From: Saprospiraceae bacterium
GTDB lineage: Bacteria; Bacteroidota; Bacteroidia; Chitinophagales; Saprospiraceae
Reading direction: 5' to 3'
Assembly: GCA_020631355.1 (NCBI GenBank)
Contig: JAHDHL010000005.1
Span: 4,525 to 68,524, forward strand
Length of the DNA stretch: 64,000 bases
Of the stretch, positions 8,736 through 63,850 are shown piece after piece. Each line of letters opens with the position of its first letter. Position 1 is the first letter of the stretch. The notes under the pieces are model-generated. The model saw only the letters and a program-made list of their open reading frames with translations. It did no database searches and was not told the origin of the DNA. The position numbers and the translations under genes are program-made.

Positions 8736-8769
8736 TTTTCTAGATGATGAAACCAATATTGATACGAAT

Positions 8770-8804
8770 AAAAAAGGTGTTGTGGATTCCACAACACCTT
8801 TTTT
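8770..8804. terminator. Bidirectional terminator
   Basis: A perfect 16-bp stem with a 3-base loop (ATT), an A-run on one side and a T-run on the other, between the converging genes ending at 8735 and 8825. It works in both directions. Confidence 0.9.
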
Positions 8805-8824
8805 ATTCTGAAATTCAGGCTGTT

Positions 8825-57334: not shown

Positions 57335-60300
57335 TTATTGATATTTAATTAATTTCTCAATAAAATACTCATTACCAATTTTGATATGAATCAAATAAAT
57401 ACCATCGGATAAATGAGATAGATCAATACTTTGGTTGGTTAGTGCTTGAGCCTGGATTTCGTTTTGATACATAACTTTTCCAGTTGCATCAAAAACCGAA
57501 ATTCCCAAATCACCCGTAACCTCTTGTCCGAAATTCAATTGGAATTGTCCTTTGTTAGGATTAGGGGAAATATGGATTTCCTGCACTTCATTGATATGAA
57601 TGTCAATGATTTCAGAATAGGAGAAAGACTCATCCCAATCAATCATTTTCAGGCGGTAGTACTGATGCCCCAATTGATAATCAGTATCCTTGAAACCATA
57701 GTCTACGGATGTGGCAGATTGCCCTGCGGCAGCGACCTGACCGATTGTCCTGAATGTTGGATGCTGTGGTGTTGCTCGTTGTACTTCGAATGTCTTACTA
57801 TTTTCTTCTGAAATGGTCGTCCAAGAAAGTTCATTCCATCTATCATTGATATGTATTCCATCAAATTGTACGAGTTCTACAGGTAATGCTCCTTGTCCGG
57901 TAGCACCACCGGCGCCACCACCACCGCCACCAAAATGACCAACGGTATATTCGGCTGCATTCCATTCAGAATTACCACCCCAGTTCGGAATTCTCATCCA
58001 TGTGGTAGTGGATGCAGAACCGCCGTTTGCGTATTGCTGGTAGCCATCCTGAGCATGTCCGGTAGCAAAAGGAACACCAGTGTGTCCGCTTGTTGGATCC
58101 ACATTCCAAGGACTGATGTCATTGATTTTCCAGAAATACATATCCTCATGTGCCGTAACATTAGAAGCTACTGCAGTAATTCCTGTAAAATCAGCCTCGG
58201 TATAATAGAATCGTACTTCAACATCCGATGTCGGTTCATTGGTAGGAGTAATATTCCAGTAGCGATTCATCGTATACCAACCATCCGGATTACTGGCATA
58301 ATCTGCACTTGACAAATCAGATACAGTAGGGTCTACCCTAAGGATACATTGGAACGTACCATCGCCGATGGTTCCGATATTTTCACCGTTTTTCTTGACT
58401 GAAAGCAATAACATATCATCACAAGGGTCGGCAGGCGTACCTGCATCATCAATGTAGTGGGTCCAATTACCTACGGTTATTTCAGAATCTGCCGTATAGG
58501 TTGCAGCAGCTCCATCTGGTATTTGCTCCAAATAGGCACAATCATTCGAGACGCTGAAGTTGTCAATGCCAAAACCGTATTCCCAGCCTCCATTATCGTC
58601 ATAATCAAATTCTACTCTGAATGCACCGTTGAGGAATCCAGACGGTAAGGTTTCCGAGAATGTACCTATTTCGCTTGTAACATCCAACCAATTGGTAGCT
58701 GTGGTCGTCCAAGCAGTACCATCCCAATATTGCCATTGGGTACCATCATAAACCCTCATTCTTACAAATTCCTGATTTGCATCATTATACTCCCTGTAAG
58801 TGTAGTCAAAACTCAAGGTTACATTACATGCATTACTCAAATTGAAGTAGGGTGATATGGCCTTGGCTTGATCCGTAGAACCATTCCCTGCGGCATCGTC
58901 ATCAAAATATCCCCATGCGCCTGTGCCGTTATTGGCACCTGTGGTTCCTCCTCCGATGGATCCATTATCAAAGTTCCATGTATTCGTAAAATACCAACCG
59001 TCAGGTTGTCCTGCTTCGAAATCCTCTGTGAGACAAGTCTGGCATGCAGGAGGTAATGTCCCATTACCTGTACATTGGAATGTAGGAATACCATTATCGG
59101 TATTGATACTAGCACTTCCACATGGGTCAGACCAAACTATCAGCACGATATCCCCATCCATGGGTGTTGTGAATGTAGCAGTACAGCCTGAGGTAGTGAA
59201 GAAATCCGTAGTTGGTGCCGAACCATCATAATACGCTACCGTAATATTGGCAGCCCAGGTAGCTGCATTGTATCCATTACAGAATTCAAAGGTGTATTCG
59301 GAACCTGCATTGACATTACGAACAAGATAGGATTCGCTACTCCATACCTCATAGCCTAGTGCATAGGGGATTCCACATGCAGATGCACAAGGAGCATTGC
59401 CAAAATCGGTATATGGCCCGGCGGCATAGGTCGTACAAGGAGGAGTCGATTGAGTGGTATATGACCATACGGAAGACCAGGCATCAGTCAAACAATCATT
59501 GACGGCTCTGACTCTCCAGTAATAGGTAGTGGAAATAGCCAAACCCGAAGCAGTAGTGGAAGTACCCGGTATTCCCGTTTCAGTATATACAATATTGGAG
59601 AATGCCATATCTGTCGCAACTTCTACCTCATAAGAAACAGCATTGGGGATGGCATTCCACGAGAGTGGGGTATTGACACCCTCATCCGTTGCTCCATCAG
59701 TCGGTGAATTGAGGCTTACAGCTCCCAGATTTGTAGATGAGATTGATAATGCTAAGTCCAAAGTTCTGGTAATGCCTCCACCATTAGCGGTTACGGTTAT
59801 GGTGTATGATCCGATAGCTGCAGTTCCCGGGTCAATGGTGAGTGTGCTACTAGCAGTAGGCGTGATGTTATTGGCAGAGAAACTACTGGTTGCTCCTGAC
59901 GGTAAACCTGAAACACTGAGATTGACCGATGAACTGAATCCACTGAATCCTTCCAAATCCAGCACATAATCGCCCGTGGCAGGAGGACACAAATCCAATG
60001 CTGTTGGACTAGCTGTCATGATATAGGTTGGGGTGGTAGTTTGAATGGTGAAGTCCTCATTGGAAATATCGAAGAAGATATTATCCGAACAGAAAATCAT
60101 GATTCGGGTCTGATTTCCCAGATTATTTGGAACAATGATATCATGGGTACCATCATTTGCCACATTGGATGCCAATGTAACAGGGTAGGTCATTCCTCCA
60201 TCCTGTGATAAGAGAATATCCACATTGGAACAATTGATAGGAGCTATGTCTGTACCTGCAACATCCCAAGTAATGGTTTCGGTATCACCTATATCCCAAG

Positions 60301-62083
60301 TAACATTTGTATTGGGAGAAGTGACAAGGAAAGGTCCTGCACCCGCAACAGTCGTTACATTCATCAAGTCACTGGATGTACATCCGGCAATACCATTGTT
60401 ATCCCTAACGATGAAAGAGAATTCCATGTTTCGACTTACAGAAGGTAATACTTCGAATGTAGGTGTAACATTATTGACCAAGTCATCAAGATTGGGCATA
60501 TAACGGTAAGGTTCGGATACAGGGGGAAGTGACCTGAACATCGGGCCTACTGTACGGGTAGGAGTCGGAGCAGCATTGGAACTTGGATTCTCAGGGTCAT
60601 TCTGTTCCCAACAATAAGTGATTCCTGAATCATCGGGGTCGCTTCCGGTTCCCTCTAATTTGAATGGAGTGGAAACAGGAATGGAATAATCTGAACCTGC
60701 ATCAGAGCTTGGGCCGCTATTGCCCGAAGTAATCAATTCTGCACATCCGCTGGCATTACCGCCATTGGCAGTAGTGACGATATCCCTGATATTGACATAA
60801 GCAAAATAATCATCACTCTGATTTTGGACATTGGCAGTACAGATACCGGCATATCCCATAATGGAACTACCACTACCAGTTTCAACTTCAGTCGCGCCAC
60901 TTCCCGAACGGCAACTGGCATTACTCTGAACATGATAGCCACCATATTGGTGACCCATTTCGTGTGCAACATAATCAATGTCAAAGGGGTCACCGATAGG
61001 AGCAGCCCTACCCGTATAACCACGACCCTTGTGCGTACCATTTTGGCTGACAGCCAAGCAAACACAATCCAGACAACCCGCATTTCCTCCTCCAGAGGTA
61101 TTGAAGTTATGGCCTATGTCATAGTTCGCTACTCCGATCTGAGCATCAATGGTTTGGGCAGTAGTGGTGTTATATTCACCGGACCAAGGGTCCGTTGCTG
61201 CATTAAGATAAATGATGAGATCATTGTTGGGAATGAATTGCATGGTGATTCCCATGTCATTCTCAAATACGCCATTCACACGATTCATGGTGACATTCAT
61301 GGCTGCTTGAACAATGGCCTTGTCACCTGCTGTTGTTCCTGTAGTACCGCCAGCTTGACTGATATGATACTGGGCATATTCCCCTGTACAAGATTGGGCC
61401 AGACGGTATCTCCTAAGATTACAATCACCCAATGCTCCAACCCTTGAATGCCTTTCCACATGGTGGTGTGTCCCGGGATGCGGTTCTTCCGTGAAGCATT
61501 CGAAGCTGGTATCAGGATTGGTGATGTCCTTTCGATAATAGGCCATATAATACTGGTGGTCCTTGGTGAAAGGGTCGATATAAACCGTACTGTGTTTTCC
61601 TGATTGTATCATTACATTCAGTCCGAAATAAGGAGAATAACTAACGCGTACTGAAGCAGTCTTATCTTCTATTCCCTTACCGATATAATTCTTTAGTTCT
61701 GGGAACTTGGCGGCTAAATCAGGATGCATGAGTTCTGCATTGACCATCTCAAACTGACCGTATCGACCATTGGGTAATGGAAAACCCATGACGATACCAT
61801 TACCCGAACCAAGTTGGTCTCTGGAAGGTGCTTCCTGCAACTGATTCAGGAATGTACCGCTATCAAATGATAAGGTCCTGAATTGTGTGGGTTGGCTGAG
61901 TCTTTCCTTTTTAGGGCTAATGATTCTTTCAGAGGGTGCATCCTGCCAAATATCCTGTGCATTCATACTGAATGAATACATGGAGAATACAATGAGAAGA
62001 ATGAAGATTTTCGAAATGGTCCGTGAATGGGGAATGGACAATGAGGGTAAGGCTATGCCTAACCGATTTGGGCTAAATAACAT
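57335..62083 (-). CDS. Secreted reprolysin-type metalloprotease with T9SS sorting domain
   Basis: 1582 residues. A signal peptide with a long basic lead (SKIFILLIVFSMYSFSMNAQ). A pro-region to about 200, then a zinc metalloprotease of the M12B (reprolysin/metzincin) kind: the motif HEMGHQYGGYH at 374-384, followed by a Met-turn candidate SIMGYAGIC. Then PKD-like and fibronectin-like domains (SSDAGSDYSIPVSTPFKLEG, then a segment with WNAIPNAVSYEVEVATDMAF) and a choice-of-anchor domain. A Gly-rich stretch (FGGGGGGAGGATGQGALP) precedes a T9SS type A sorting domain (HISPNPNKGQFQLNFG to the end). Cell-surface or secreted proteolysis. Confidence 0.93.
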   Translation of the reverse strand: MLFSPNRLGIALPSLSIPHSRTISKIFILLIVFSMYSFSMNAQDIWQDAPSERIISPKKERLSQPTQFRTLSFDSGTFLNQLQEAPSRDQLGSGNGIVMGFPLPNGRYGQFEMVNAELMHPDLAAKFPELKNYIGKGIEDKTASVRVSYSPYFGLNVMIQSGKHSTVYIDPFTKDHQYYMAYYRKDITNPDTSFECFTEEPHPGTHHHVERHSRVGALGDCNLRRYRLAQSCTGEYAQYHISQAGGTTGTTAGDKAIVQAAMNVTMNRVNGVFENDMGITMQFIPNNDLIIYLNAATDPWSGEYNTTTAQTIDAQIGVANYDIGHNFNTSGGGNAGCLDCVCLAVSQNGTHKGRGYTGRAAPIGDPFDIDYVAHEMGHQYGGYHVQSNASCRSGSGATEVETGSGSSIMGYAGICTANVQNQSDDYFAYVNIRDIVTTANGGNASGCAELITSGNSGPSSDAGSDYSIPVSTPFKLEGTGSDPDDSGITYCWEQNDPENPSSNAAPTPTRTVGPMFRSLPPVSEPYRYMPNLDDLVNNVTPTFEVLPSVSRNMEFSFIVRDNNGIAGCTSSDLMNVTTVAGAGPFLVTSPNTNVTWDIGDTETITWDVAGTDIAPINCSNVDILLSQDGGMTYPVTLASNVANDGTHDIIVPNNLGNQTRIMIFCSDNIFFDISNEDFTIQTTTPTYIMTASPTALDLCPPATGDYVLDLEGFSGFSSSVNLSVSGLPSGATSSFSANNITPTASSTLTIDPGTAAIGSYTITVTANGGGITRTLDLALSISSTNLGAVSLNSPTDGATDEGVNTPLSWNAIPNAVSYEVEVATDMAFSNIVYTETGIPGTSTTASGLAISTTYYWRVRAVNDCLTDAWSSVWSYTTQSTPPCTTYAAGPYTDFGNAPCASACGIPYALGYEVWSSESYLVRNVNAGSEYTFEFCNGYNAATWAANITVAYYDGSAPTTDFFTTSGCTATFTTPMDGDIVLIVWSDPCGSASINTDNGIPTFQCTGNGTLPPACQTCLTEDFEAGQPDGWYFTNTWNFDNGSIGGGTTGANNGTGAWGYFDDDAAGNGSTDQAKAISPYFNLSNACNVTLSFDYTYREYNDANQEFVRMRVYDGTQWQYWDGTAWTTTATNWLDVTSEIGTFSETLPSGFLNGAFRVEFDYDDNGGWEYGFGIDNFSVSNDCAYLEQIPDGAAATYTADSEITVGNWTHYIDDAGTPADPCDDMLLLSVKKNGENIGTIGDGTFQCILRVDPTVSDLSSADYASNPDGWYTMNRYWNITPTNEPTSDVEVRFYYTEADFTGITAVASNVTAHEDMYFWKINDISPWNVDPTSGHTGVPFATGHAQDGYQQYANGGSASTTTWMRIPNWGGNSEWNAAEYTVGHFGGGGGGAGGATGQGALPVELVQFDGIHINDRWNELSWTTISEENSKTFEVQRATPQHPTFRTIGQVAAAGQSATSVDYGFKDTDYQLGHQYYRLKMIDWDESFSYSEIIDIHINEVQEIHISPNPNKGQFQLNFGQEVTGDLGISVFDATGKVMYQNEIQAQALTNQSIDLSHLSDGIYLIHIKIGNEYFIEKLIKYQ

Positions 62084-62301: not shown

Positions 62302-63699
62302 TTATTTAGACGGTGTAGGTCGCTTCTTGCGCTTAGTCTTGAACAATTCCTTAATGTCCTTTTCTTTCATGAATTCACATTCCTTGAATGTAGCCGTAGT
62401 GAATTTCTTGATACCTTGGTAATCACCACCACGCTTATCCGTATATCGCTTCAATAGTCGCTTTAGGTATTTCAGGTACAATACCTTGATGCTTTGGTTG
62501 AATTGCTCATTACCGAAGATATTTATGTATGAAACGAATACCTTGTGCATTTCAAACCAAGTAGAATAGTCCGTTTCTTCCAGATTTTCCATCAGGATTC
62601 TGACATAAACAAGTATGGACTGGCGGATAGCCATGTTGTTATCAGAAAGTCCCTCATTGGATTCATGGTATCGTTTTACGACAGCCATGGCCTCATCATT
62701 CACATAACCTTTGGAATGGATGGCATCCAGTGTCTCATAGAAAGAAAGGATTTCATCCTCATGTTCTTCATCCAATAATGATTTGAATCGTCTATCAGCA
62801 TCAGCATTCAATGCAGGTTCTTGGCGTTCGTGCAAATCCAAGATGAAGTTGAAGTAGTATTCGGAGAAATTAGGATTATCCTTTCTCTGGCTATTCAGGA
62901 TAGGTCCCAGGATATTGACATAGTCCTCATTCAATTCGAAGTAATTCAGGAATAATCCCAATAAGTATGTGTATTCCTCTGTTCCCTTGAGCTTATCATC
63001 CATCAACATGGTTGTGACGGGATTGTAAAGCGTAACATTATTCAGTTGGTGACTGATTCTATACATCAGGAAATTCCTGATACCACCAAAGGTGATTTTC
63101 AAATCCGCCTGAGTGGTTGGGAACTTGGTAGAAAGGTAATTGTATCCCTTGAACTGTCTTTGGTACCTTAGATAAGCTGCCTTTCTGTTCTTGATATCGC
63201 GATACTCGGACAATTTTTGGTTCTGCAACCACCACTTCACACGCTTATTGGTCAGGTCCTTAAGGATGTTCGTAATCCAGATATCACTACTTAGGGAGAA
63301 TCCTACCTGAATGGATTGGCCGATTCTTGCCTTGAGGACATCAAAGTTCGGTGAATTACAGATGAATACCAATATGTTCCTGAAGTGATCCTGTGATTGG
63401 ACATACTTGTAATTGACATCCAATTGTCCCCTTAGAATGGTGAATCCCAAAACCTTTGGGAGGTAGAGACCAGCGAAATCATCAGTTAGCAAAACTTCTT
63501 CCAAGGCTTGCAGCTGCAAAGGCTCATTTTCAGCCACTACGCCATAAAGTTCCTCTATGGCAGGTTCGAATTGTTCCTGTAGTGCCTTATAATCCTCTGG
63601 TTCCTCCGTATCAATGAAAGTCTCCAATTGTTCGGATGCTTGGATTGCTTCTGCAATTTTGAGCAAATGCTCCTTGTATGCCTCGTTCAATTCAGCCAT
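62302..63699 (-). CDS. Helical protein of unknown function, 465 residues
   Basis: Start at ATG 63699 (MAELNEAYKEHLLKIAEAIQ); the frame is open to 63783, but that part lies in the structured leader and is not expected to be translated. The protein is almost all helical, acidic in front (ELETFIDTEEPEDYKALQEQ region) and basic at the end (KTKRKKRPTPSK). It has no signal peptide and no membrane helix. Repeating helical pairs (YTYLLGLFLNYFELNEDYVN, SEYYFNFILDLHERQEPALN) may form an alpha-solenoid. I do not recognise the family. The gene has its own promoter, a 16-bp-stem leader and a terminator, thus a well-defined single unit. Confidence 0.75.
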   Translation of the reverse strand: MAELNEAYKEHLLKIAEAIQASEQLETFIDTEEPEDYKALQEQFEPAIEELYGVVAENEPLQLQALEEVLLTDDFAGLYLPKVLGFTILRGQLDVNYKYVQSQDHFRNILVFICNSPNFDVLKARIGQSIQVGFSLSSDIWITNILKDLTNKRVKWWLQNQKLSEYRDIKNRKAAYLRYQRQFKGYNYLSTKFPTTQADLKITFGGIRNFLMYRISHQLNNVTLYNPVTTMLMDDKLKGTEEYTYLLGLFLNYFELNEDYVNILGPILNSQRKDNPNFSEYYFNFILDLHERQEPALNADADRRFKSLLDEEHEDEILSFYETLDAIHSKGYVNDEAMAVVKRYHESNEGLSDNNMAIRQSILVYVRILMENLEETDYSTWFEMHKVFVSYINIFGNEQFNQSIKVLYLKYLKRLLKRYTDKRGGDYQGIKKFTTATFKECEFMKEKDIKELFKTKRKKRPTPSK

Positions 63700-63719
63700 T
63701 GTAATAGGTATTTTAACTG

Positions 63720-63794
63720 ATAGTCCATAGTTGGAACCCCATCCCTTTTTTAAGGGTCGGCTTGCGCCGAATGGTAACTCCAACTATGGACTAT
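63720..63794 (-). ncRNA. Structured 5' leader: 16-bp stem enclosing two hairpins
   Basis: On the minus strand a perfect 16-bp stem (ATAGTCCATAGTTGGA with TCCAACTATGGACTAT) encloses 43 bases. Inside are TCGGC-GCAA-GCCGA (a 5-bp stem with a GNRA loop) and CCCTT-AAAA-AAGGG. The result is a three-way-junction-like fold. It lies between the promoter and the ATG at 63699, with the fold ending 21 bases before the start codon, so it will be in the mRNA leader. It could be a cis-regulatory RNA or a processed small RNA; a small mobile repeat is the alternative. Confidence 0.65.
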
Positions 63795-63819
63795 TTGGTA
63801 TAATCAATAAATTGTGGTG

Positions 63820-63850
63820 CAAATGTAGGATTATTCAAGGAGATTTACAA
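63820..63850 (-). promoter_or_regulatory. Bacteroidota-type promoter of the 465-residue protein gene
   Basis: On the minus strand, TTG (63850-63848), 20 bases, then TACATTTG (63827-63820), a full consensus match. Transcription would start near 63813 and include the structured leader. Confidence 0.75.

Follow-up and report, generated by a model that had tools for sequence, protein, structure and literature searches.

The subject of this analysis is a 64-kb stretch of Saprospiraceae DNA (the window) and, within it, a structured leader element at 63720-63794 on the minus strand, which is also the strand of its RNA. It stands before a gene for a predicted helical protein, and the gene upstream of it is divergent. 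The element, referred to here as the window type, consists of a 16-base-pair (bp) outer stem around two hairpins. On the given strand the stem arms read ATAGTCCATAGTTGGA (63720-63735) and TCCAACTATGGACTAT (63779-63794); their complementarity is perfect, and they form the top-listed inverted repeat of the whole window among those with arms no more than 120 nucleotides (nt) apart. The folding energy of the minus-strand leader was -42.8 kcal/mol, compared with -22.8 +/- 3.7 kcal/mol for shuffled sequences (z = -5.4), and none of 200 shuffles was as good. In this fold both inner hairpins are enclosed by a CCAT/ATGG helix, and 20 nt separate the end of the stem from the ATG (63699). An earlier reading made without database searches (the sequence-only reading) had described a perfect 16-bp stem enclosing a GNRA-loop hairpin and a second hairpin, and the sequence and the fold both bear this out.

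The product of the downstream gene had been described as an unknown helical protein, which is consistent with the results obtained here. Structure prediction gave an all-helical solenoid (predicted local distance difference test score 92.7), and sequence searches of Pfam, NCBIfam, PADLOC and the Protein Data Bank gave no match to a known family, with a single sub-threshold Pfam match (DUF1912, E = 0.52). The best Foldseek E value was 0.035 and the VIA-align Z score was at most 7.8, values which for helical repeats may reflect only a common arrangement. The last 62 residues have an isoelectric point of 10.2, and the basic end carries the conserved motifs TDKRGKDYQ and FKTRRKKK. Orthologues were found in 257 of 298 Saprospiraceae genomes, representing 101 of 112 genera. 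The loci bear titles such as Saprospiraceae, Lewinella and Phaeodactylibacter, and most of the family has the gene in a single copy. A profile search of 244 sampled genomes of the class outside Saprospiraceae gave no orthologue. The restricted range of the hairpin described below is that of the gene, which we count as support for the hairpin belonging to the gene.

Conservation of the window type was determined in the genus, for which the search took in nine genomes, the window's included. All nine matched, and in eight species, again counting the window's own, the match is a true copy directly before the orthologous gene. The ninth (L012, genome G005, 88% complete) was rejected as a chance match, in a genome with no detected orthologue. 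The orthologous proteins of the genus are about 62-77% identical to that of the window, yet the outer stem is almost invariant. The inner hairpins vary in their letters but stay paired, and six pairs of the window type covary, mostly within these inner hairpins. There are 24 G-U pairs and four A-C mismatches, counts which, like those of covarying pairs, come from related rows and not from independent events. The emphasis placed earlier on a three-way GNRA fold was not upheld: the GNRA loop and the three-way junction vary within the genus, and the common denominator is one long stem. Considered as a riboswitch, the window type has neither conserved junction nor conserved loops, and the family-wide form is a simple hairpin.

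That family-wide form, a second hairpin type, emerged from reading the leaders of the orthologues in other members of the family. Its RNA consensus is AACCUGGUAG-GC-UUAANU-GC-CUAUCAGGUU (DNA letters GAACCTGGTAGNGC-TTAANT-GCNCTATCAGGTTT), with the CCU...AGG parts of the stem and the UUAANU loop as its conserved letters. A covariance model was built from 54 leader hairpins. Among the 72 orthologue loci outside the clade of the window, 71 have a single hairpin of this type upstream of the gene, with the sense strand scoring highest; the sole locus without the second-type (ACCTG) hairpin is L166. Three hairpins (L110, L120 and L152) were detected by the model though absent from the training alignment, the latter two at unusual distances. 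At L120 the hairpin is retained 622 nt upstream despite the insertion of an unrelated repeat between it and the gene. Ten of the 15 pairs changed on both sides, with 96.4% of cells paired, and none of 500 shuffles equalled this. The covariation which had been named as the check on the element is thus present in the window type and in its counterpart. The second type has 72 G-U pairs and 11 A-C mismatches, and this excess of G-U over A-C points to an RNA of the sense strand and not to a DNA operator or cruciform. The spacer within the stem is from 6 to 48 nt long across the hairpins compared, and TTTAAA or TTAAAA stands shortly 3' of the stem in 34 of 71 relatives.

Some observations on single leaders and on the loop may be added. 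At L166 and at L191 another hairpin, AAGCCTGTCGAAAC...GTTTCGACAGGCTT, lies in a similar place, in the last 100 nt or so ahead of the gene. The repeat between leader hairpin and gene at L120 (2850-2965, genome G545) is a palindrome about 100 nt long whose stem has 26 bp, and it is present in 40 or more copies. The UUAANU loop is similar to the UUAAGU loop of a 16S ribosomal RNA hairpin, a likeness set aside since the window type is without it. A pseudoknot of the hairpin loop with the downstream UUUAAAA was judged, by reasoning only, to be sterically unlikely.

The element is present once in the 6.16-Mb genome of the window. Allowing up to two mismatches, the 16-nt arm was no more frequent in that genome than a reversed-pattern control, and a trans-acting antisense partner was rejected for want of a second site of the stem sequence above the same control. 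The sequence-only reading had left regulator and mobile repeat as alternatives, to be separated by copy number, and an element found only once does not behave as a repeat scattered at random sites. A pattern search of 120 genomes matched 18, with one site in each and all 18 beside the orthologue, while the control matched none. When the covariance model was used to look for further copies, the best 50 candidates per genome being scored, the high-scoring sites compared adjoined the orthologue; of the weaker matches at other loci, those that were read mostly have the appearance of ordinary T-run terminators, and weak further copies may exist beyond the 50 scored. Both in the genus and across the family the hairpin stays with one gene. 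Plasmids and viral contigs gave no match, and a viral or plasmid origin was rejected.

The element lies between a TACATTTG box on its 5' side and the start codon on its 3' side. The box agrees with the Bacteroidota -7 consensus TAnnTTTG, as quoted in PMC7366714, and from its position transcription of the window gene would start at about 63811-63815. A full consensus promoter had been claimed here. A promoter motif does adjoin the element, but it is of the Bacteroidota type (TTG-20 nt-TACATTTG) and not the Escherichia coli sigma-70 consensus; a scan for promoters of the latter type found none just upstream of the element on the minus strand. In 57 of 77 loci a TAnnTTTG box is present no more than 100 nt 5' of the leader hairpin, compared with a mean of 5.2 and a maximum of 11 in shuffles and with 3 on the antisense strand. 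Box and stem keep a steady spacing (median 39, quartiles 31.5 to 47.5), whereas that from stem to ATG is variable (median 28, quartiles 20 to 82, maximum 622 nt). The kind and orientation of the upstream neighbour differ between genomes; the hairpin thus does not serve as terminator for any one constant neighbour, and it belongs to the leader.

In the protein tree the window type, comprising the window's genus and L097, forms one side of a branch with a support of 88 in the Shimodaira-Hasegawa-like approximate likelihood-ratio test (SH-aLRT; midpoint root only), and a single exchange between the hairpin types therefore suffices. Both types share the position after the promoter, the long stem and a following UUUAAAA-like motif, and differ in their stem letters. 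Place and long-stem form persist despite the exchange of stem sequence between two clades.

Palindromic repeats of TAGTCCA/TAGTCGA-like heptads, with letters resembling the outer stem of the window type, were seen in another genus of the family (g4; L068-L070 and L076-L088, genomes G197, G246 and G279). Repeats of the TAGTCCATAG type in this genus are multi-copy in G246, and most of the sampled g4 genomes yielded no orthologue. The multi-copy occurrence makes a domesticated repeat a possible origin of the window type.

The features of the locus are collected in Table 1. Elsewhere in the window, a gene at 57335-62083 on the minus strand encodes a secreted-looking protein of 1582 residues with a zinc-protease-like motif (HEMGHQYGGYH) and a C-terminal end like a sorting domain, and at 8766-8808 a perfect 21-bp inverted repeat, possibly a terminator, has T-rich ends and a spacer of 1 nt.

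Table 1. Leader element, promoter and gene in the window (RNA letters for the parts of the element).
Feature	Position	Strand	Basis or remark
TTG, possible -33 element, 20 nt 5' of the -7 box	63848-63850	-	read from sequence
TACATTTG, Bacteroidota -7 promoter box (TAnnTTTG)	63820-63827	-	motif match
Outer stem, 5' arm AUAGUCCAUAGUUGGA	63779-63794	-	near-invariant within genus
Inner closing helix, 5' side CCAU	63771-63774	-	fold; missing from some relatives
Inner hairpin 1, UCGGC-GCAA-GCCGA, GNRA loop	63757-63770	-	fold; pairs covary in genus, loop letters vary
Inner hairpin 2, CCCUU-AAAA-AAGGG	63743-63756	-	fold; pairs covary in genus
Inner closing helix, 3' side AUGG	63739-63742	-	fold
Outer stem, 3' arm UCCAACUAUGGACUAU	63720-63735	-	near-invariant within genus
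UUAAAAU motif directly 3' of stem	63710-63716	-	form common to both hairpin types
Gene, 466 codons, 465-residue predicted alpha-solenoid protein, basic C-terminal tail FKTKRKKRPTPSK	62302-63699	-	open reading frame and structure prediction

Comparison of the sequences shows a hairpin that follows a Bacteroidota promoter motif, keeps its pairing on the sense strand and is tied to one gene. With moderate confidence, we interpret the window element as a cis-acting hairpin in the messenger RNA (mRNA) leader of a Saprospiraceae-specific protein, bound by a protein which is perhaps the product of the same gene, ie autoregulation. The sequence-only reading had offered a cis-regulatory RNA or a processed small RNA; location, co-conservation with the gene and the G-U/A-C asymmetry favour the former, in the shape of a cis-acting leader, over a free small RNA or a repeat. 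Recognition by a protein is suggested by the constraint on stem and loop letters in each type. The proposed binder of the long, sequence-constrained stem would most likely be the gene's own product, making contact by way of its conserved basic C-terminal region, and its binding would set the output of the mRNA at the level of translation or stability. Action at the 5' end of the mRNA, on stability or on the early loading of ribosomes, is more likely than simple masking of the start codon, because the hairpin stands at a steadier distance from the promoter (about 40 nt) than from the ATG. Bacteroidota mRNAs are without Shine-Dalgarno sequences, and what tunes their initiation is the structure of the mRNA together with the identity of its bases (PMC6847099); a stem in the leader can therefore plausibly matter. 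More tentatively, there may be an autoregulatory RNA-protein pair across the family, in which the orphan alpha-solenoid protein binds its own leader hairpin and, in the clade of the window, both were switched together to a stem of unrelated sequence.

Several results weigh against this interpretation. In the window type the outer stem is near-invariant and hence shows little covariation of its own, and none of the fold or family matches of the protein points to RNA binding. The stem sequences of the two clades are wholly different, which is hard to square with recognition of both by a single protein unless the two partners changed together. About a quarter to a third of the loci are without a detected TAnnTTTG box, and the spacing from hairpin to ATG ranges widely, from about 20 to more than 600 nt.

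A passive element, in which a strong 5' hairpin protects the mRNA or is cleaved by RNase III and no dedicated regulator is involved, is possible though we think it unlikely. It would account for a hairpin anchored to the promoter and not to the ATG, and for a long-stem form that outlasts the swap of sequence between clades. It accounts less well for the confinement of the hairpin to one gene and for stem letters which, within each type (CCU...AGG with the UUAANU loop, and AGUCCAUAG in the window type), are far more conserved than a generic hairpin needs. We regard it as improbable that the leader hairpin attenuates transcription or is a weak intrinsic terminator, a reading for which a GC-containing hairpin soon after the promoter and the presence of GGUUCUUUUC 3' of the stem in a few relatives might be cited: a scan of the window element gave nothing resembling a terminator, the first 10 nt 3' of the stem contain a mean of only 4.4 T as against the T-runs at terminators of the same genomes, and no alternative antiterminator helix is evident. 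A DNA operator, with a transcription factor binding the inverted repeat, would suit conserved arms adjoining a promoter, but it merits similarly little credence given the G-U excess of both hairpin types, a spacer of such variable length and the covariation of the inner hairpins. A mobile repeat that landed in the leader, for all its palindromic form, the multi-copy TAGTCCATAG-type repeats of another genus and the unrelated repeat inserted at L120, is very improbable for an element that is single-copy in the window genome and its congeners, always in the same place, with a stem that stayed near-invariant as protein identity fell to about 62%.

The cis-acting hairpin of the mRNA leader which we favour is apparently new to description, as a candidate regulatory RNA. 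No Rfam family reached its gathering score (L10_leader gave only E = 0.66, away from the hairpin), in agreement with the earlier statement that no known class has this layout, and no description of the element was found in literature searches in which coverage of subscription journals was thin. The three-way GNRA fold matters only locally, and the broader result is a leader hairpin found across the family and linked to a single orphan core gene. It provides a leader RNA with strong comparative support in many genera, attached to a near-universal, uncharacterised gene of a large environmental family, and a way into the function of the orphan protein. The stem sequence was exchanged at constant position and long-stem form, a natural experiment on co-evolution between a leader RNA and its binder.

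Compared to known systems, the element shares a long palindromic stem with internal hairpins with repetitive extragenic palindromes, bacterial interspersed mosaic elements and miniature inverted-repeat transposable elements (REP/BIME or MITE repeats), from which it differs in its single copy, fixed place and covarying pairs. The intrinsic terminators of the same genomes are similar in stem size and in their CCTG/CAGG letters, and are the second-best matches of the model, but they end in T-runs and the leader hairpins do not. Ribosomal-protein leader RNAs (the L10 leader, RF00557, and the S15 leaders) differ in that the window gene is no known ribosomal protein and protein binding is only proposed here; like the window element they are structured 5' leaders of a single gene, confined to a clade and with covarying stems. 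In the case of the S15 regulators (PMC4137082), the orthologous gene is served by RNA structures that differ from phylum to phylum.
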